Below are positions 41 through 7,365 of a DNA stretch of 8,773 bases, piece after piece. Source of the DNA: Pseudomonadota bacterium (GTDB lineage: Bacteria > Myxococcota > Bradymonadia > UBA4248). Within the stretch, counting starts at the first letter, position 1. Every line of letters begins with the position of its first letter. The notes under the pieces were generated by a model. The model was not told the DNA's origin. It did not search any database and was given only the letters and a program-made list of their open reading frames with translations. Where the stretch lies: contig JAGACY010000392.1 in the NCBI GenBank assembly GCA_017613855.1, positions 1 through 8,773 of the forward strand, given 5' to 3'. The translations under genes and the position numbers were made by a program.

Positions 41-214
41 AGAATCATTTACCTGAGTTTGAGACTATTGCCCTCAAGGCTCAATTAACGTCTACAAGCT
101 ATAAGCTTAAATGTAAATTTCTGTTGCAAAGCTCTTCATCCTCGTACAACACAGCTTCAATCAGCCTGCAGGCGTGAAGTCGCCTATGACTTTGCATCCC
201 CCAAAATAAGAAAT

Positions 215-307
215 GCGCGGTGTATTGGCCTTTGGCCAATAGCCGCGCAGCGCAGTGCGTATCGAAGCCGAAGGGGCGACCCTGTGGTCGCCCAAAGGCG
301 AGATAGC
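215..307 (+). repeat. Bulged-hairpin cluster 1, two units
   Basis: Unit one (215-248) has outer arms GCGCGG/CCGCGC and an inner stem TATTGGCC/GGCCAATA with loop TTT. Unit two (257-307) has the frame GCGTATC...GATAGC and an inner stem GGGCGACC/GGTCGCCC. In both, one G before TAT has no partner, so each stem carries a single-base bulge. Exactly 13 GC-rich bases (244-256) separate the two units, counting from ATAGC to GCGTAT. A heptad array follows at 319. Confidence 0.75.
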
Positions 308-318
308 ACGCGGAAATC

Positions 319-353
319 AATAAATAATGAATAATGGATAATGAACAATTAGG
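319..353 (+). repeat. Degenerate AATNNNN heptad array
   Basis: Five consecutive seven-base units: AATAAAT, AATGAAT, AATGGAT, AATGAAC and AATTAGG. The AAT anchor is constant and the other four bases vary. The array directly follows hairpin cluster 1. Confidence 0.75.
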
Positions 354-454
354 ATGCAAAACTAATGAGAAATTCTAAAGCAAATAGGGAATATCCGTAC
401 CAATTGCTGAAATACAAATATCTTCATACTTTAGAAATCGCCCCGAGAATACCC

Positions 455-488
455 TCATTATCAATTATCAATTATCCATTGTTAATTC
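455..488 (-). repeat. Degenerate AATNNNN heptad array just downstream of the RND gene
   Basis: Read on the minus strand the units are AATTAAC, AATGGAT, AATTGAT, AATTGAT and AATGAGG. The array begins about 17 bases beyond the RND stop codon. Confidence 0.7.
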
Positions 489-505
489 AGAATTCCATCC
501 CTCCC

Positions 506-3500
506 CTATTTCTTCTCTTTGGCTTTCTCTTTCTCAAGTCTTTCGGCTTTTCTCTTTTCGGATTCGCGCTTCATGATGGCTTCGTCATTTTCGATCGAAT
601 CGTCCTCGGGCTCATTGCTGATGCCGAAGATTTTGCGCACGATGCCTTTGCCGTCTTCAATCATAATATAATTGCAGGGGACAATGACAATCGTAATGAC
701 GGCCGAAAAGAGCACGCCGACGCCGAGGCTGATTGCCATTGGAATGAGGAAGCGCGCTTCTTTGCTCGTTTCGAGGATCATCGGAAAAACGCCCAGGAAC
801 GTCGTGATGGTCGACAGGAAGATGGGGCGGAATCGGCGCGTCGCGCCTTCGATAACAGCTTCGCGCAAGGACATGCCTTCGTCCAAGAAGTCATTGACGA
901 CGCTCGTGAGCACAATCGATGCGTTGACGACGATACCCGAGAGCGCGATCATACCCAGAATACTAATCAAGCTTAGATTGTAGCCGAGGGCGACATGCCC
1001 GAGGATGGCACCGACAAACCCGAAGGGAATAGCCACTAGAATCATGATCGGCTGGATATAGGATTTGGATGAAATCGCGAGCATGGCGAACATGACGAAG
1101 ATCGAAAAGCTGAAGAATAGGATCATTTTTGACCACATTTCATCGCTGTCGGCCTGCATGCCGCCCATGCTGAAGGACAATCCGGGGAAGGTTGCCTGCA
1201 GCGAGGCCATATCTTTCTTTTCGAGCTGAGCGCGGATTTCCTCGACGGTCGTCACATCGCCGTCGAGTTCGGCACTGACGGACAGAATGCGCTTGCCATC
1301 GGTACGCGAAATGCTCTTATAGGCATGGCCGCGTTCGACGGTAGCTGCGCGCGACAACGGGATTTCGCCGCCGGACGGCGTCCGGATGAGAAAATCTTCG
1401 ACGAGTGCTTCGGATGATCGCACATCTTTAGGATAGCGTACAAAGACCTTGACTTCGTCATTACCGCGCTGCTGGCGCAGAGCCTCGGTACCATAAACTG
1501 CCGCACGCAACTGGCGCGCAAAGTCGCTTTCGGTCACGCCCAGGCTGCGGGCTTCCTGTGTCAGTTTGTACGAAAGCTGTGCTTTACCGGGCGATGTATT
1601 GACATCGACATCCTTGACGCCATCGTAGGTTTTTAGGATTGCTGCAAATTCTTCGGCAGCTTTTTCGAGTACTTCGCTGCTTCGGTGGGAAAGATTGAAC
1701 GTCGCTCCGGCGCTGCCTGCGCCCGGCCCCTGATTAAACCTGAAGGACGCGCCTTCTACCCCGGGGATTTCGCCGATTTTCTTGCGCCAGAGTTTTGAGA
1801 AATCACTCGAGGCATAATTTCGTTCGGTCGCAGGTTTGAGGTAAACCTGGAACGACCCCGAGGAACCGCCCGAAATCTGTGAATAAACGCCGATGACCGA
1901 ATCGCGCCCGATTTCGTCGATGGCTTCCTGGGTGCGTTCGAGATAGTATTTTTCGACTTCCTTGATGCGGCTCACCGGGCTGCCTTCGGCCATTCGAATG
2001 GATGCCGAAACGGTATCGCCCTCGACCTCGGGCATCATCGTATAACGCAGTCGGCCGCTCGAAACATAGCCAATCGTGCCAATCAGAATGGCGATGGCAA
2101 GCGCCGTCACGACATAGCGCTGATTGACGCAGAACGAAATGAATTTCTTGATGTAGCGTTCGATCCAGCTTTCGAAAGCATCGGCAATTCTGCACTGAAA
2201 ACGCTGAATGAGCTTGATAAACCCATCGGTGCGCGCCTTCATGTGACTGAGATGTGCCGGCAAGACGAGCATCGACTCGATAATCGATATACATAAAATG
2301 ATAATGACGATGATCGGCAAATCCCGATAGACCTTGCCGAGCATACCGGGCAAAAACAGCAGCGGAATAAACGCGATAATCGAGGTTAAAACCGAGAAAA
2401 TGACCGGCTGCGAAACCTCTCTGAGTGCCATCAGCGAGGCAACAATGCCCTTGTGCCCTTCCTGCCGGTTGACATAGACGGATTCGCCCACGACGATCGA
2501 GTCATCGACGACGATACCGAGTGCCAGAATAAAGCCGAACAGCGAAATCATATTAAATGAAACATCAAATACGACCATGACTGCGATGGCACCGACAAAT
2601 GAAGTGAGCATGCCCATGGCGGCCCAGAATGCGATACGGATATCGAGCAGCAATCCCAAAAATATGAGGACGAGCGCCAAACCGGAATACGCATTTTTCA
2701 TGAGCAGATTGATACGGACGCGATAAGAATCGGCGCGGTCTGAACGAATGCCGACGTTGACTCCTTCGGGATATGTGCCCTCGTGTTCGTCCAAATAGCG
2801 GCGAACGGCATCCGAAACGCCGACGGGCGTCTCATCGCCGACGCTGTACACCTGCAGCTGAACAGCGGGCAAACCATTGTATGACGCCGAATAATCCGAT
2901 TCCTCGAAAGTATCAGTCACCGTAGCGACATCGCTCAAGCGCACGACACGCCCATCCGAGCTGGTTTTGAGTACGACACTTTCGAATTCGCTCGCATATC
3001 GTTTACGCAAAGTCGTACGCAGCGTGACAGCACCGCTCTCGGCCTTTAAATTACCGGCCGACAAATCGACCGAGCTTGAACTGATAGCACTGGCCACTTC
3101 CTGCAGTTTCAACCCGTATTTCTGCACAGCTTCCTGCGAAATTTCGACAGCAACCTCGGGACTTTCGACATTCGACAGCTCGACGATGCTCACCCCGTTT
3201 TGCAGCATGAGATCATCGCGCACATCCTGCGCCACTTCGCGAAGCGCCGCCTTGCCGACGTCGCCATACACGAGGACGCTCAAGACGACCGATTTTCGCG
3301 TCATTTCCCGCACAACGGGCTTTTCCATATCATCGGGGAAAGTCGTAATCTGATTGACTGCGCGCTCAATCTCATTTTTGGTGCGCATGACATCGGCACC
3401 ATCTTGCAATTCGAGCTGCACACTGCCCGATCCTTCCGAAGCCGTCGAAGTCATGGTCTTAATACCATCGATGCCGCGCACCGATTCTTCGATTGCAATG

Positions 3501-3781
3501 ACGATCCCCTCTTCGACCTCATCGGGCGTCGATCCCGGATAACTGGCACTCACCATGATGCGCTGTGCCTCGGTATTGGGCATGAGCTCTTTCTTTAAGC
3601 TCGGCAGCATCACGATACCCGCGATGATGAACATAAAGAAGACCAAATTGGCCGCAATATGGTTCTGCGCCATCCAGGCGAGTGGCCCGCGGAAAATCGA
3701 AGGATCGACGGGCTGTTTCGTCTTTTTGGTGTTTTCTTCGGTTTTGTTTTCAACCGGCTGTTTATTCTCTGGAGCGTCCAA
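506..3781 (-). CDS. RND-family efflux transporter, inner-membrane permease
   Basis: This 1091-residue protein is the proton-driven inner-membrane pump of a tripartite efflux system, and its length is normal for hydrophobe/amphiphile efflux RND proteins. The first membrane segment is at about 42-60. A large periplasmic loop follows (about 61-360), then a block of membrane segments at about 365-510. The second half repeats the plan: a segment at about 557-573, a loop to about 885, and segments to about 1039. The TM4 proton-relay pair is visible as D426-D427 in GIVVDDSIVV. At the TM10 position where AcrB has Lys940, this protein reads SGIVVNASIV (948-957), so the Lys is absent, as in several RND subgroups. 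Residues 1-25 are a charged extension, and 1058-1091 are a Lys/Glu-rich, probably coiled tail. The start is TTG, supported by GGAG seven bases upstream; an in-frame stop six codons upstream excludes a longer protein. The substrate is unknown. Confidence 0.95.
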   Translation of the reverse strand: MDAPENKQPVENKTEENTKKTKQPVDPSIFRGPLAWMAQNHIAANLVFFMFIIAGIVMLPSLKKELMPNTEAQRIMVSASYPGSTPDEVEEGIVIAIEESVRGIDGIKTMTSTASEGSGSVQLELQDGADVMRTKNEIERAVNQITTFPDDMEKPVVREMTRKSVVLSVLVYGDVGKAALREVAQDVRDDLMLQNGVSIVELSNVESPEVAVEISQEAVQKYGLKLQEVASAISSSSVDLSAGNLKAESGAVTLRTTLRKRYASEFESVVLKTSSDGRVVRLSDVATVTDTFEESDYSASYNGLPAVQLQVYSVGDETPVGVSDAVRRYLDEHEGTYPEGVNVGIRSDRADSYRVRINLLMKNAYSGLALVLIFLGLLLDIRIAFWAAMGMLTSFVGAIAVMVVFDVSFNMISLFGFILALGIVVDDSIVVGESVYVNRQEGHKGIVASLMALREVSQPVIFSVLTSIIAFIPLLFLPGMLGKVYRDLPIIVIIILCISIIESMLVLPAHLSHMKARTDGFIKLIQRFQCRIADAFESWIERYIKKFISFCVNQRYVVTALAIAILIGTIGYVSSGRLRYTMMPEVEGDTVSASIRMAEGSPVSRIKEVEKYYLERTQEAIDEIGRDSVIGVYSQISGGSSGSFQVYLKPATERNYASSDFSKLWRKKIGEIPGVEGASFRFNQGPGAGSAGATFNLSHRSSEVLEKAAEEFAAILKTYDGVKDVDVNTSPGKAQLSYKLTQEARSLGVTESDFARQLRAAVYGTEALRQQRGNDEVKVFVRYPKDVRSSEALVEDFLIRTPSGGEIPLSRAATVERGHAYKSISRTDGKRILSVSAELDGDVTTVEEIRAQLEKKDMASLQATFPGLSFSMGGMQADSDEMWSKMILFFSFSIFVMFAMLAISSKSYIQPIMILVAIPFGFVGAILGHVALGYNLSLISILGMIALSGIVVNASIVLTSVVNDFLDEGMSLREAVIEGATRRFRPIFLSTITTFLGVFPMILETSKEARFLIPMAISLGVGVLFSAVITIVIVPCNYIMIEDGKGIVRKIFGISNEPEDDSIENDEAIMKRESEKRKAERLEKEKAKEKK

Positions 3782-3788
3782 GTGCGTT

Positions 3789-3792
3789 CTCC
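3789..3792 (-). promoter_or_regulatory. Shine-Dalgarno GGAG fixing the TTG start of the RND gene
   Basis: On the minus strand GGAG lies seven bases before TTG (3779-3781). It overlaps an ATG at 3792-3794 that is out of frame with the pump and opens a 10-codon frame ending in TAA inside the pump's first codons. The ATG has no Shine-Dalgarno sequence of its own, so TTG is the better-supported start. Only six bases (3793-3798) separate this site from the perfect heptamer array. Confidence 0.65.
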
Positions 3793-3798
3793 ATTTTT

Positions 3799-3891
3799 AA
3801 TGCGGAATGCGGAATGCGGAATGCGGAATGCGGAATGCGGAATGCGGAATGCGGAATGCGGAATGCGGAATGCGGAATGCGGAATGCGGAA
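3799..3891. repeat. Perfect heptamer array, 13 copies of AATGCGG, in the RND gene leader
   Basis: From 3799 the plus strand reads AATGCGG 13 times without a single difference, then AATTATT. On the mRNA strand this is a run of CCGCATT ending six bases before the GGAG site of the RND gene. Perfect identity over 91 bases points to recent expansion or ongoing slippage. A length change would alter the mRNA leader, or the promoter spacing if a promoter lies upstream. Confidence 0.95.
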
Positions 3892-3914
3892 TTATTTTGA
3901 TTCTAAATTTAAGT

Positions 3915-3950
3915 AAATGTCAGTTATTCCCTATGGATTGAATGACATTT
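3915..3950. promoter_or_regulatory. Inverted repeat AAATGTCA...TGACATTT, possible operator
   Basis: Exact eight-base arms at 3915-3922 and 3943-3950 are separated by 20 bases. They lie upstream of the heptamer array in the 437-bp gap before the RND gene. The arm spacing would suit a dimeric regulator or a loose hairpin. No regulator gene is in the window, and I could not pair it with a good promoter. Confidence 0.3.
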
Positions 3951-3978
3951 GGAAATTACCGTTCTCATTGTATGTCAT

Positions 3979-4013
3979 AACAATTATTCATTATTCATTG
4001 TCCATTGTTCATT
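3979..4013 (-). repeat. Degenerate AATNNNN heptad array
   Basis: On the minus strand the units are AATGAAC, AATGGAC, AATGAAT, AATGAAT and AATTGTT. It adjoins hairpin cluster 2 on the same side and in the same relative orientation as the array at 319-353 adjoins cluster 1. Confidence 0.75.
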
Positions 4014-4022
4014 GTTTTTATC

Positions 4023-4097
4023 GCGGCTATTTCGTGGCTTTGCCGCGAAATACGTCGCGCTTCGCGGCTGCTATTTGCGTTGCAAATACGCATCCGC
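4023..4097 (-). repeat. Bulged-hairpin cluster 2, two units
   Basis: Read on the minus strand, the unit at 4070-4091 is GC-G-TATTTGC, loop AAC, then GCAAATAGC. The unit at about 4026-4055 is AC-G-TATTTCG with an inner GGC/GCC step around AAA, then CGAAATAGC. About 14 GC-rich bases separate them. The frame and bulge match clusters 1 and 3, but the stem sequences differ and remain complementary. It lies between the adaptor and RND genes. Confidence 0.75.
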
Positions 4098-4125
4098 CTA
4101 TGTTTATGATGCACAATACATTCAT

Positions 4126-4200
4126 AAAAATTGCTTTTCTTTTGGAAGGGGATCTGGGGGAAACCTTTTCTTTTGTGCCAAAAGAAAAGTTTTCCCCCAG
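4126..4200 (-). repeat. 75-bp hairpin element, copy 1, downstream of the adaptor gene
   Basis: Arms at 4154-4174 and 4180-4200 are 21 bases long with one mismatch, around the loop GTGCC. Beyond the hairpin, 4126-4153 contains TTGCTTTTCTTTTGGAAGG, which matches copy 2 in inverted orientation. It begins 18 bases beyond the adaptor stop. No T-run follows the hairpin, so it is not a standard terminator. Confidence 0.85.
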
Positions 4201-4218
4201 CATACCCCAGAAAAACAA

Positions 4219-5463
4219 CTACCTCGGTGGACCGCCCATGCCGGGAGGGCCAAAGCCGCGACCGCCGTCATCCGGAACATCGCCCATTTCCTTGGTTTCG
4301 CCCTTGACGCGCAGGCGTCTGCCTTCGACCGGCGACGTCAACATCGTCGTTACAACGCGCTCACCCTCTTCGATGCCCTCGGTCACATAGACATTGTCAT
4401 TCGTTTTATAGGGCGTCGTGAGCGTTCGAATCGATAGCTTATTATCTTTGGTACAGATATAGGCCTGATTCCCTTCACGCACAAAAGCTCTCGACAGTTC
4501 AATGCTGTCGAGTGGGGCTTCGGCATAAATCGAGGCTGTGACGAAAGTTCCAACCAAAAGAGGTTCATTCACAGGCTCCCCAAGGGGATTTTCGATGGCC
4601 AAAAGGATCTGCACCATGCGCCCTAAGGATTCGACTGCCGGCTGCACCGATTTGACTTTTGCCGCACGCGTCACGTGCTTGCCCCCAATGTCATATTCGA
4701 CTTCGGCCTTGAGAGAAGAGAGTGATTCCCCGACTTTGAGCCACCCGACATTAGATGGGTTTAGACTCAGATAAACCCAGTATTCATCAGTAGAAACGAG
4801 CGTTCCCAAAGAACCGCCGGTAATGTAATCCCCCATCGAAACATTGGCTTCTTTGACGACGGCATCATAAGGGGCTTTGACGATACTGCGGTTGTAATCG
4901 CGCTGCGCCTGGGCGACGTTATTTTTGGCCAGTTCGACGTCGGCAATCGCATTCTGCAATTGCGGTTTACGACGCACCAAATCGGCTTCTTCTTCGGTCA
5001 AATCCGTGTCTGCCATGCTCTTTTTCAGGGCATCGAGTTCTGCCGAAGCCGCTCGGCCCTTGGCTTCTTCCTGCATGAGCGACACTTCTTTTTGCCGCAG
5101 CTGAATTTTGGCATTCGAGAGCTTGGTCGCGTAATCGTCGGTGTTGATCTTTGCGATGACTTCGCCCTTTTTGATGCGCGCCCCCGGATAAAAACCGGGA
5201 TTTATCCAGGTAATTCGCCCATTTGCCTCGCTCTTTATCTGCTGGGAATGGCTCATCTCGACCTGGCCGGTACCCGAAAGCTTGACGACATGCGGCTCTT
5301 TCGTCACAGGAATGACCTCGACGAGTACACCGACATCCCGCATCGGCATCTTCTTGGGTTTGACGCGATCCATCAGGTACGCTCGCGCAACAATAATACC
5401 GACAATCACGACGGCTATTGCGATCAACCCCTGTATAATAAATGGTCTTGCTTTACTGCTCAC
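4219..5463 (-). CDS. RND efflux periplasmic adaptor (HlyD/membrane fusion protein family)
   Basis: This 414-residue adaptor links the RND pump to the outer-membrane duct. An N-terminal membrane anchor is at about 9-28, with no lipobox Cys, so it is a single-pass anchor rather than a lipoprotein. The split lipoyl (barrel-sandwich) domain is visible as about 74-108, including NPGFYPGARIKKGEVIAKI, and about 192-214, including SIVKAPYDAVVKEANVSMGD. Between them, about 111-190 is a Lys/Glu/Ala/Gln-rich alpha-helical hairpin that would contact the outer-membrane protein. Beta-barrel and membrane-proximal domains follow to about 390, and the tail is Gly/Pro-rich, ending GGPPR. The start is GTG, preceded by AAGGA at seven bases (5471-5475). 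The gene is bracketed by two inverted copies of a 75-bp hairpin element, which is unusual inside an efflux operon. Confidence 0.93.
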   Translation of the reverse strand: MSSKARPFIIQGLIAIAVVIVGIIVARAYLMDRVKPKKMPMRDVGVLVEVIPVTKEPHVVKLSGTGQVEMSHSQQIKSEANGRITWINPGFYPGARIKKGEVIAKINTDDYATKLSNAKIQLRQKEVSLMQEEAKGRAASAELDALKKSMADTDLTEEEADLVRRKPQLQNAIADVELAKNNVAQAQRDYNRSIVKAPYDAVVKEANVSMGDYITGGSLGTLVSTDEYWVYLSLNPSNVGWLKVGESLSSLKAEVEYDIGGKHVTRAAKVKSVQPAVESLGRMVQILLAIENPLGEPVNEPLLVGTFVTASIYAEAPLDSIELSRAFVREGNQAYICTKDNKLSIRTLTTPYKTNDNVYVTEGIEEGERVVTTMLTSPVEGRRLRVKGETKEMGDVPDDGGRGFGPPGMGGPPR

Positions 5464-5481
5464 AGTTTTTTCCTTTTTTGC

Positions 5482-5556
5482 GTGGGGAAAACCTTTTCTT
5501 TTGTGCCAAAAGAAAAGGTTTTCCCCACACCCCTTTCCAAAAGAAAAGCAATTTTT
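5482..5556 (+). repeat. 75-bp hairpin element, copy 2, upstream of the adaptor gene
   Basis: Perfect 21-base arms (5482-5502 and 5508-5528) surround the loop GTGCC. The flank 5529-5556 contains CCAAAAGAAAAGCAATTTTT, the inverted counterpart of copy 1. In the mRNA the hairpin ends six bases before the adaptor's AAGGA site. The segment AAAAGAAAAG occurs twice in the element, so two alternative pairings are possible. A further 12-base fragment of the arm, GGTTTTCCCCAC, lies at 5592-5603. Confidence 0.88.
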
Positions 5557-5559
5557 TAT

Positions 5560-5588
5560 ATTACTATCTTATCTTTATTCACGTTCAA
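5560..5588 (-). promoter_or_regulatory. Weak internal promoter candidate upstream of the adaptor gene
   Basis: TTGAAC (5583-5588) and AGTAAT (5560-5565) on the minus strand are separated by 17 bases, each matching the consensus at four of six positions. It lies in the 214-bp gap between the duct and adaptor genes. The gap is AT-rich and the match is modest, so the call is tentative. Confidence 0.2.
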
Positions 5589-5658
5589 CGCGGTTTTCCC
5601 CACGGTTAATCACTACGAATGTACTGCCCCTCCGGGATGTATTTTTCTGTGAATACCA

Positions 5659-5686
5659 TTCTATTATTCATTATCCATTATCCATT
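5659..5686 (-). repeat. AATNNNN heptad array overlapping the duct gene's stop codon
   Basis: On the minus strand the units are AATGGAT, AATGGAT, AATGAAT and AATAGAA. The first units supply the final Asn and Gly codons and the TAA stop of the outer-membrane lipoprotein gene. Confidence 0.75.
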
Positions 5687-7120
5687 ACTGTCTAATTCCT
5701 CCAGCATCTCCTTAGCCTTGTCTTTCCCTCTGGTCCTTGCGTCATTGAGCCATTGAGATCCGCCCATGGCTTTAAATAACGCGATCTGTGCATTCAAAAG
5801 ATTATGTCGTGCATCGAGTTCAGACTGCGAAGAAGAAATCATGCTGCGAAGTGCCGACAAAACGCGGTTATAGTCGAGCAGGCCGTGCGTAAAGTAATCG
5901 CGCGAAGTTTCGAGAATTTCTTTATGCCGTTCGAGGTCCGCCTGTGCATCGGCGAGCAGCTGTTCGCGCAAACGCAGTTCCAAAAGAGCCTGTTCGACTT
6001 CCGAGACAGCCTGCATGACGACGAGTGCATAAGAGATGCGCTGCGAAAGATAAGAGACTTTTGCCCGCTTGATGGCAGTGGTTTTGTTAAAACCATCAAA
6101 GAGATTGGCAGAGAAATTGGCAGCCAAATCCCAAATCAAAGCTTTGAACAAATCGACGATACTCGACGACCTGAAGGCCAGCGAAGCACTCAAACGCAGC
6201 GTTGGCAAGCGATCGGCAATAGCAATGACGACCTGGGCATCGGCCTGTTCGGCACTTCGGCGTGCAGAACGAATGTCGGGACGGCTGTTCAGAAGGGTCT
6301 GGACATCGACGGTACCACCGACTTCGACCGCATCCGGCATGGAACCTTCGACCGCTGGCTTGGTCTTGCCATTGACCAGAATCGAAAGCGACTGCGTGGC
6401 AATGCGAATATTGGTGTCGTATTGGGCAATGGTCGATCGCAGAGACTCGATTTGCTGACGCTGTTCGAGCAAATCCATGCCATTCGTCTGCCCGGTCTTG
6501 TAGTATTCCTGTACGAGTTGATAGTAATCTTCGGACAGTTCGAGCAATTGCTCAGATAAAACCTTGCGATCCCGATAGTAAAGGATATTGAACCACGAGG
6601 TAACGACATTCCCGACGAGCGAGAGCAATGCCGATTCGGCCGAGTCTTCGGCGGACAAATATGACAACTCGCTGACGCGTGTTTGAGCGCGAACTTTGCC
6701 CCAAAGATCGACTTCGTAACTCAGCGAGAGTCCGAGACTGTAACTGGGATCTGCAGTGCTATTCTCCTGAATTCTGCCGCCATAGCCGACGCCGGCAGTC
6801 AGATTCAGATTAGGATAATAATTGGATTTGACCTGTTCAAGCGCCATTTCGCTGTCGAGCATGCGCAGGTAAGCCGCCAGAATGGTCGGGTTCTCTTCGA
6901 GTACGATTTCGACAAACCCATTGAGTTCCGAATTCCCGTAGGCCTGCCACCATTTGTCGCGCACCTGCCCGCTGAGCGCAATATCCCCATAAGTGTATTC
7001 GACCTTTTGCGCCTGTTCATCGAGTTCTTTGCCGTACTTGACGGGACTAAAGCACCCGGTCAGGCCCATGAGACCGAATATCATCAGAAAGAGTAAGATT
7101 GTTTTGAGTTTATTCTTCAT
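5678..7120 (-). CDS. Outer-membrane efflux lipoprotein (TolC/NodT family)
   Basis: This protein is the trimeric outer-membrane exit duct of the efflux pump. From the chosen ATG it has 480 residues, typical of the family. A lipoprotein signal is clear: Lys-rich start, hydrophobic core, lipobox GLTGC with the acylated Cys at residue 23. Family landmarks follow: DKWWQAYGNSELNGFVE (55-71), SYEVDLWGKVRAQ (134-146), RPDIRSARRSAEQADAQ (270-286) and ALFKAMGGSQW (447-457), with helical, Gln/Glu/Leu-rich stretches between. The frame stays open upstream to a GTG at 7160-7162, but those 14 extra residues come from the heptad repeat and would push the signal peptide away from the N-terminus. No strong Shine-Dalgarno sequence is visible at either start. 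The last codons (Asn-Gly-stop) also lie in a heptad array. It is probably the first gene of the pump operon. Confidence 0.93.
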   Translation of the reverse strand: MKNKLKTILLFLMIFGLMGLTGCFSPVKYGKELDEQAQKVEYTYGDIALSGQVRDKWWQAYGNSELNGFVEIVLEENPTILAAYLRMLDSEMALEQVKSNYYPNLNLTAGVGYGGRIQENSTADPSYSLGLSLSYEVDLWGKVRAQTRVSELSYLSAEDSAESALLSLVGNVVTSWFNILYYRDRKVLSEQLLELSEDYYQLVQEYYKTGQTNGMDLLEQRQQIESLRSTIAQYDTNIRIATQSLSILVNGKTKPAVEGSMPDAVEVGGTVDVQTLLNSRPDIRSARRSAEQADAQVVIAIADRLPTLRLSASLAFRSSSIVDLFKALIWDLAANFSANLFDGFNKTTAIKRAKVSYLSQRISYALVVMQAVSEVEQALLELRLREQLLADAQADLERHKEILETSRDYFTHGLLDYNRVLSALRSMISSSQSELDARHNLLNAQIALFKAMGGSQWLNDARTRGKDKAKEMLEELDSNG

Positions 7121-7152
7121 AAAAATGAATACATGATTCAATGAGCAATTGG

Positions 7153-7180
7153 TTGTATTCACTATTCACTATTACTCAAT
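7153..7180 (-). repeat. Heptad array upstream of the duct gene
   Basis: On the minus strand two identical AATAGTG units are flanked by a degenerate unit on each side (ATTGAGT and AATACAA). The array lies 33 bases upstream of the chosen ATG of the outer-membrane lipoprotein and contains the alternative GTG start. Confidence 0.6.
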
Positions 7181-7201
7181 GTTATCCGAACAAGACCAGT
7201 G

Positions 7202-7229
7202 AATACGTAATAGTGAATAATGAATAACT
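7202..7229 (+). repeat. Heptad array, inverted partner of 7153-7180
   Basis: Plus-strand units are AATACGT, AATAGTG, AATAATG and AATAACT. With the array at 7153-7180 it forms an imperfect inverted repeat around about 21 unique bases, and it directly precedes hairpin cluster 3. Confidence 0.65.
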
Positions 7230-7232
7230 AAA

Positions 7233-7344
7233 GCGCAGGGCGTATTGGCGCAGCCAATAGCCCGAGCGCGCAGGGCGTATTGGCGCAGCCAATAGCCCGA
7301 GCGCGCAGGGCGTATGGCGTGCCGAAGGCCGCCATAGCCGCGCA
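7233..7344 (+). repeat. Bulged-hairpin cluster 3, three units of period 35
   Basis: Units 7233-7267 and 7268-7302 are identical. Each contains GC-G-TATTGGC, loop GCA, GCCAATAGC (cores 7240-7261 and 7275-7296). The third begins with the same GCGCAGGGCGTAT but has a different core (7310-7338): stem TATGGCG/CGCCATA, with an inner GCC-GAA-GGC. The bulged G is kept in all three. The cluster lies between the terminator at 7366 and the duct gene, so it could fall in the 5' part of the efflux transcript. Confidence 0.88.
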
Positions 7345-7365
7345 ACAAAAAAATTGTCAAAGAAC

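Follow-up and report, generated by a model that had tools for sequence, protein, structure and literature searches.

Seven hairpins lie in three intergenic clusters of the stretch of DNA studied here, contig JAGACY010000392.1 of 8,773 nt (GTDB Myxococcota; Bradymonadia; UBA4248; hereafter the window). They belong to a large family with a constant base that carries one bulged G and with stems that vary in sequence but remain paired. Neighboring arrays of these hairpins tend to alternate in strand. We have not met this orientation rule before. Neighbor orientation and swapped stems together hint that an enzyme or some form of copying targets a single folded strand. Our tentative reading is that the hairpins are non-autonomous, strand-specific single-stranded DNA (ssDNA) sites, akin to repetitive extragenic palindromic (REP) sequences and attC sites, on which a putative enzyme or template switching acts.

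A clade-specific hairpin family

The constant core of the hairpins is C-[bulged G]-TAT...ATA-G. Seven related metagenome-assembled genomes (MAGs) were reached via the resistance-nodulation-division (RND) protein encoded in the window: four are titled Proteobacteria and come from ruminant guts, two are uncultured Myxococcales, and one is Myxococcales bacterium UBA4248. The frame GCGTAT-N8-38-ATAGC matched 608–943 times per genome (both strands) in seven related genomes, compared to 46–197 matches of the reversed pattern; for instance, genomes G003 and G005 held 776 and 927 frame matches. In a class-wide search of 57 genomes, at least 309 frame matches (309–943) were found only in G001–G007 and G040, while none of the remaining 49 genomes of the class exceeded 48. 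Of 188 genomes sampled across the phylum, six had a stricter composite pattern, and each of these belongs to the hairpin-rich group. A structural catalogue of 983 kb from eight genomes contained 265 hairpins, whereas the reversed sequence gave 10 and shuffled sequence 21. Counted genome by genome and added up, 250 of the 265 were distinct, and 249 did not fall within a called gene, including 19 at contig edges, in sequence that is 83% coding. These results confirm that the hairpin family is real and restricted to one clade of gut bacteria related to myxobacteria. An initial annotation, made from the letters of the window, had proposed a search for further copies by this frame, and hundreds per genome rather than a few were found. 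We found no description of such a hairpin family in the open-licence literature, as judged by titles and the starts of abstracts.

Pairing far exceeded the expectation from column composition. In 246 frame-only hits it was of the Watson–Crick type in 72–87% of cases at stem pairs 1–6 (34–46% expected) and in 57–84% at the first five pairs beneath the frame (31–39% expected). This confirms that the folded structure is kept while the stem sequence changes, both above and below the core, as the initial annotation had claimed from the window hairpins; a failure of the stems to pair was not observed. An unbiased search of 300 kb of G007 for one-base bulges followed by at least three more pairs returned 51 hairpins, 41 of which had the frame bulge (21 read as the G before TAT and 20 as its complement). 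Triloops were present in 142 of 220 short hairpins, and 57 of those were GNA. Among the frame-only hits, GNA accounted for 42 of 132 triloops, compared to 25 expected from column composition.

Neighboring arrays alternate in strand

The hairpins of the eight-genome catalogue form 174 arrays, which take up ~28% of the intergenic regions (595 regions). Two to four hairpins are present in 74 arrays, with a single strand orientation in 71 of them, and the spacer from ATA to the next GTAT measures 15–19 nt in 82 of 87 same-strand gaps shorter than 60 nt. Hairpins inside called genes were excluded from the counts of arrays (weak ones only), G.A tandems and loops, A-runs, GC skew, neighbor orientation and the GTAG tag.

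A sensitive detector recorded 529 hairpins in 1.64 Mb, and 23 in the reversed control. Neighboring arrays separated by one gene or more were on opposite strands in 140 cases and on the same strand in 49 (p = 2e-11). Same-strand neighbors are depleted most strongly at short distances. Across all 120 loci, with sites merged within 250 bp, same- and opposite-strand pairs numbered 4 and 41 at 250–2000 bp, 18 and 56 at 2–5 kb, 17 and 31 at 5–8 kb, and 10 and 13 beyond. Loci of at least 14 kb gave 0 same and 32 opposite pairs at 250–2000 bp. A held-out set of 88 loci (309 kb), from which overlaps with the first set and among the loci themselves had been removed and to which no gene filter was applied, yielded 17 opposite and 2 same pairs, with 11 and 0 within 2 kb. 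A less sensitive catalogue gave 51 same and 127 opposite pairs overall, and 5 and 23 at 1–2 kb. Per genome, alternation in that catalogue stood out in G005, G003 and G007 and did not reach significance in G001, G002, G004, G006 and G040, with counts that were mostly small.

Alternation was present in all pairings of array type, and arrays 1, 2 and 3 of the window read plus, minus, plus. Where two opposite arrays shared one intergenic region, the order was minus then plus in 16 of 18 cases. Furthermore, array spacing at loci of at least 14 kb was more regular than random placement (coefficient of variation 0.64 vs. 0.79, standard deviation 0.04). An exception to alternation is L250 (5608–7284), where two identical hairpins with identical near flanks lie in direct orientation 1.6 kb apart.

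Two simple accounts of the placement were rejected. A replication-strand bias is not apparent, as local GC skew agreed with array strand in 149 cases and disagreed in 134. Nor do the sites seem to bound a composite transposon or cassette, since several of the 61 proteins encoded between sites separated by less than 2.1 kb are ordinary chromosomal ones, including lysyl-tRNA synthetase, UvrC, a PilB/GspE-type ATPase and an ABC transporter. These proteins were judged by eye on translations rather than by family search, and no transposase was noticed.

The folded strand

At eight pair positions in 435 frame-only hits we counted 2576 Watson–Crick, 328 G.A, 39 C.T, 87 G.T, 82 A.C and 222 equal-base cells. 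G.A is far above C.T, which identifies the strand with the bulged G as the folding strand. The lack of an excess of G.T over A.C argues against RNA. Tandem 5′-GA mismatches (n = 19) were all located at stem pairs 2–3, 17 of them in a pyrimidine-GA-purine context, and the AG order did not occur. C-GNA-G loops and pyrimidine-GA-purine tandems are very stable in DNA. Relative to codirectional genes, the orientation was the same in 71 cases and opposite in 86. Hence, the mismatch pattern and the lack of a common orientation to transcription both suggest that the folded form is one DNA strand rather than RNA, as far as the sequence can tell. The possibility of action as RNA, which the initial annotation had raised, thus found no overall support. 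In the window, none of 17 Rfam matches reached the gathering score, and hence no known structured RNA was recognized there.

Some observations speak for a role in transcripts or against a pure DNA role. Within 100 bp of 3′ gene ends we found 143 of 245 hairpins. An A-run stood on the left of 36 of 164 arrays, and 28 of the 34 classified ones face a gene transcribed into them, so that this subset resembles terminators on the complementary strand. Composite elements of G002, described below, were antisense to codirectional genes in 21 vs. 4 cases (33 of 40 classified). Those of G005 gave 12 vs. 6, in the opposite sense to the G002 bias.

Composite elements and swapped stems

Hairpins also occur in dispersed composite elements with G-run arms. 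One pattern found 44 copies in G005, and a second found 41–80 copies in each of seven genomes; neither pattern had any match when reversed. In 30 of the G005 copies the 5′ end is sharp (2.0 bits at position −14, 0.0 at −15), the outer flanks are unrelated, and 25 kinds of stem are present. Compared with miniature inverted-repeat transposable elements (MITEs), which have terminal inverted repeats and a target duplication, the G005 element showed no target duplication by eye. The 3′ side of this element (L108–L137) ends in a C/A-rich tail, made up of a variable C-run, CA-run and A-run.

The composite element of G002 shows the strongest stem variation. In the 40 of 54 copies compared, 40 different stems are set in a near-constant body, with a distance of 0.08–0.09 in the body vs. 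0.69 in the outer stem. Thirty copies with one common left arm carry 30 stems, which pair in 29/30, 28/30, 29/30 and 19/26 copies at pairs 1–4. Two related three-hairpin arrays of L050 share one stem with compensatory changes, while another stem has been replaced whole.

The stems do not appear to be copied from the insertion site: in 23 long G002 stems, the longest match averaged 7.9 nt to the own flanks and 8.1 nt to other flanks. Retroposition was rejected as well, with the reverse transcriptase family RVT_1 found in two of eight hairpin genomes, MAGs that may be incomplete; this rejection does not account for the C/A-rich tail. Some upper stems (L016, L050, L184, L192) have recurring caps, GAGACGTG...CACGTCTC or GGGACGT...ACGTCCC, which may represent another hairpin repeat lodged within the main one.

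Persistence between relatives

The window was compared with L007 (Myxococcales bacterium UBA4248, phylum Myxococcota), which has 92% identity in the best segment of the RND protein. Upstream of the OEP gene, two hairpins, among them the one at 7312..7336, are retained with a single change each between GTAT and ATA, while the rest of their spacer aligns poorly. The window hairpin pair in the gap that separates the HlyD and RND genes is absent from L007. Among the other relatives, G002, G004 and G006 carry a same-strand hairpin in the gene gap matching window 4072..4089. Downstream of the RND gene, the window and L007 both carry an array on the same strand, with sequences that cannot be aligned.

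Nucleotide orthology between G001 and G003 provided only nine collinear gaps, one of which had hairpins, in both genomes; therefore, we used neighbor pairs at the protein level instead. For 143 gene pairs that are neighbors in two genomes, both gaps held hairpins in 14 cases, compared to 7.4 after permutation, where p = 0.001 is too favorable because the 14 cases come from seven distinct places, some of them fetched for holding a hairpin. The hairpins in these shared gaps agreed in strand in 12 of the 14 cases, and their stems differ yet pair.

Comparison with known systems

REP sequences are short, high-copy, mostly intergenic imperfect palindromes with alternative complementary stems within families, and their dimers are mostly head–head or tail–tail, head–tail dimers being rare (PMC3733652). 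In line with the GTAG and CGTC super-families of REP, the frame hairpins are short, high-copy and intergenic, have a bulge, and have stems that are varied yet complementary. In contrast to REP sequences, they are arranged in tandem same-strand arrays rather than in head–head or tail–tail dimers, alternate in strand across genes, and have stems that are nearly all different in some genomes; moreover, no REP-associated tyrosine transposase (RAYT) was found in two hairpin-rich genomes. TnpA-REP of E. coli requires GTAG and the bulge, and uses the upper half as structure without sequence specificity (PMC8266576). The GTAG tag is in place, at −8, in only 23 of 416 frame hairpins (CGTC is not part of this count) and occurs at most once at other offsets. 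GTAG just 5′ of the hairpin is confined to composite elements, where the stricter composite pattern fixes it.

The strand of attC sites depends on a single extrahelical G, and their terminal structure is variable (PMC2727003). Judging by their letters, the frame hairpins probably share one folded strand, an extrahelical G, a conserved base and a variable terminal structure with them. However, their core is C-G-TAT/ATA-G rather than the R and L boxes of attC sites (no box search was run), and they are scattered among ordinary genes and alternate in strand. The ends of IS200/IS605 elements are strand-specific ssDNA hairpins, as the frame hairpins also appear to be, and are read by structure (see below). 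Mitochondrial double-hairpin and repetitive hairpin-forming elements are, like the frame hairpins, dispersed, structurally diverse and intergenic (PMC2800124). Unlike them, those elements reside in organelle genomes. We know of no constant bulged core or strand alternation in the mitochondrial elements. In short, TnpA-REP of E. coli and attC sites offer the closest parallels, and the family appears to work like REP or attC sites, yet lacks defining features of both.

Search for a partner enzyme

The initial annotation had likened the hairpins to REP sequences and suggested a RAYT or other Y1 transposase gene as a partner. The dispersed copies, sharp end and unrelated flanks agree with a REP-like family, but the partner is unsupported. 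Y1 transposase genes were present in six of the eight hairpin genomes and were not found in G003 or G005, which, as MAGs, may be incomplete. At eight Y1 loci read closely by eye, other palindromic repeats adjoin the gene, and no transposase gene framed by frame hairpins was seen, a difference from IS200/IS605 elements, whose strand-specific ssDNA hairpins are read by structure (PMC8266576). Frame hairpins lay within 0.5 kb of four of the eight loci (L041–L044), and at L042 three of them begin 31 nt after the Y1 gene. Four of eight is about the expected number, given the share of intergenic regions that arrays occupy.

Several other palindromic repeat families stand beside the Y1 genes of L038–L045, for example GCACCCTGAAAGGGTGC and GCGGCTTCCAGCCGC. 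At L046 (1–2346) and L047 (163–1821), the Y1 transposase domain lies in frame within a longer open reading frame with repeated GDAGVSPA-like peptides, as if another repeat family sits in coding sequence.

No integron integrase over the cut-off was found in the eight hairpin genomes, which as MAGs may lack genes. Seven of the eight had general tyrosine-recombinase matches only, as did all 14 control genomes.

Hairpins and other features of the window

An RND efflux operon (Pfam ACR_tran, HlyD, OEP) occupies 506–7162 on the minus strand. All seven hairpins and the three clusters with a common bulged frame described initially were located, five on the plus and two on the minus strand. Array 1, with arms and spacer, spans 213..313 (plus). 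Its first hairpin, at 222..241 (plus), reads GTAT-TGGCC-TTT-GGCCA-ATA with outer arm GCGCGG/CCGCGC. In the second, at 259..305 (plus; outer arm GTGC/GCAC), the TATC/GATA stem runs on through a tandem G.A mismatch into GCC/GGC and a long apical hairpin. Array 2, with arms and spacer, spans 4018..4100 on the minus strand, opposite to arrays 1 and 3. Its hairpin at 4028..4053 (minus) has the stem TATTTCG/CGAAATA followed by GGC/GCC and the loop AAA, and was missed by the stricter scan on its own; that at 4072..4089 (minus) has the stem TATTTGC/GCAAATA. Array 3, with arms and spacers, spans 7233..7346 (plus). Its first two hairpins, at 7242..7259 and 7277..7294 (both plus), are identical (TATTGGC-GCA-GCCAATA) and repeat as a 35-nt tandem unit, and its third, at 7312..7336 (plus), reads TATGGCG.../CGCCATA.

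The two bases before GTAT are GC in five of the seven hairpins, GT at 222 and AC at 4028, which agrees with the variation in two copies reported initially. Folding as ssDNA of six window hairpins, which left out 7277 as identical to 7242, gave z-scores of −2.0 to −6.0. The G of GTAT was unpaired in each, in accordance with the initial description of a G without partner.

A 74-nt repeat flanks the HlyD-type gene in inverted copies at 4126–4199 and 5483–5556, which are 88% alike and each contain a 22-bp near-perfect hairpin with a 3-nt loop. Arrays of 7-bp units (AGCTTAT, AATGCGG x13, ATTATCC and others) occur in the hairpin-bearing intergenic regions, at 1–37, 319–349, 457–480, 3799–3892, 3983–4016 and 5663–5687.

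Possible explanations

How could an enzyme produce this pattern? The hairpin strand would fold when it is single, for instance on the lagging-strand template. The part recognized would be the hairpin base, C-[G]-TAT / ATA-G with its extrahelical G, and the upper stem would need only to pair. TnpA-REP and integron integrases likewise read a constant base with an extrahelical G on one strand and leave the paired upper stem free (PMC8266576, PMC2727003). A putative enzyme, most likely an ssDNA transposase or recombinase, would act on the folded strand and spread copies between genes. Two same-strand sites that are single-stranded together may get joined, with loss of the intervening DNA. Within one to a few kilobases, same-strand neighbors would then be weeded out, and most of those left would be inverted. 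New stems would arise by paired replacement, plausibly through template switching at the hairpin, which is the likeliest source of new stems and, by itself, the main rival. A further-reaching version, which we regard as doubtful, is that the hairpins are chromosome-wide strand-specific ssDNA recombination sites, hundreds per genome, where removal of same-strand neighbors by a putative enzyme reading the bulged G causes the alternation and the upper stem is repeatedly rebuilt as a perfect palindrome.

Several results weigh against an enzyme of this kind. Candidate genes are patchy in these possibly incomplete MAGs, with no Y1 gene found in two genomes, no integron integrase in any of the eight and RVT_1 in just two. 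Stem variety is uneven: at least 13 of 55 copies in G004 carry one and the same stem, and stem repeats are commoner in other genomes than in G002. We saw no empty site and no strain-level gain or loss. Array strand has no link to GC skew, though a lagging-strand process might show one. Depletion of same-strand neighbors is not absolute, with four such pairs at 1–2 kb across all 120 loci, the identical hairpins of L250 among them. In addition, opposite pairs at 1–2 kb are about as numerous as all random pairs (27 observed, 24–29 simulated), which is more than simple same-strand loss would leave.

The main alternative is a passive mutational origin without a dedicated enzyme, where template switching makes and repairs the stems, slippage deletes DNA between same-strand hairpins, and selection removes those pairs whose deletion loses genes. 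The near-absence of wobble and of mismatches other than G.A is as expected if one arm serves as the template for its partner, template switching has been reported to create and maintain perfect stems (PMC8794818), same-strand depletion fades with distance as slippage would, and our searches turned up no enzyme. On its own, however, this explanation leaves the constant base, the hundreds of sharp-ended dispersed copies, the constant position and orientation of G.A tandems, and the stems without a match to their own flanks unaccounted for, and we consider it rather unlikely to suffice. A classical REP/RAYT family, whose palindromes would be mobilized by a REP-associated Y1 transposase that the genome itself encodes, is less likely still. 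The high-copy intergenic palindromes, the GTAG just 5′ of the hairpin in composite elements, the Y1 genes in most hairpin genomes and the arrangement at L042 would suit it, but it is contradicted by the two genomes in which no Y1 gene was found, by the other palindrome families at Y1 genes, by the lack of GTAG in most hairpins, and by the predominance of tandem same-strand arrays, given the rarity of head–tail dimers in REP families (PMC3733652).

An RNA or terminator element, whose hairpins would end or stabilize transcripts, could explain the proximity to 3′ gene ends, the arrays with a left A-run that face an incoming gene, and the antisense bias of the G002 elements. Yet an overall orientation is lacking, the G005 elements lean the other way, wobble pairs are not in excess, and the window matched no Rfam family at the gathering score, which makes this role highly improbable. 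Least probable of all are chromosome-organizing sites, with alternating arrays as putative anchors of small DNA loops: alternation, regular spacing and the retention of hairpins on the same strand in shared gene gaps would agree with such anchors, whereas stems and array types vary freely.

Implications

Our preferred reading of enzyme-dependent ssDNA sites and its rivals concern a family that offers an unusually clean natural experiment on the origin and upkeep of perfect DNA hairpins, as in G002, where the 40 copies compared have 40 stems within a near-fixed body. Through the depletion of same-strand neighbors at 1–5 kb, a process on one folded strand leaves a footprint that can be measured, and the same footprint can be sought in REP-rich genomes, such as those of E. 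coli and Pseudomonas. If an enzyme is indeed behind it, this would be a new ssDNA-hairpin enzyme with a substrate that needs only a short constant base, which may find use as a tool acting on single strands.

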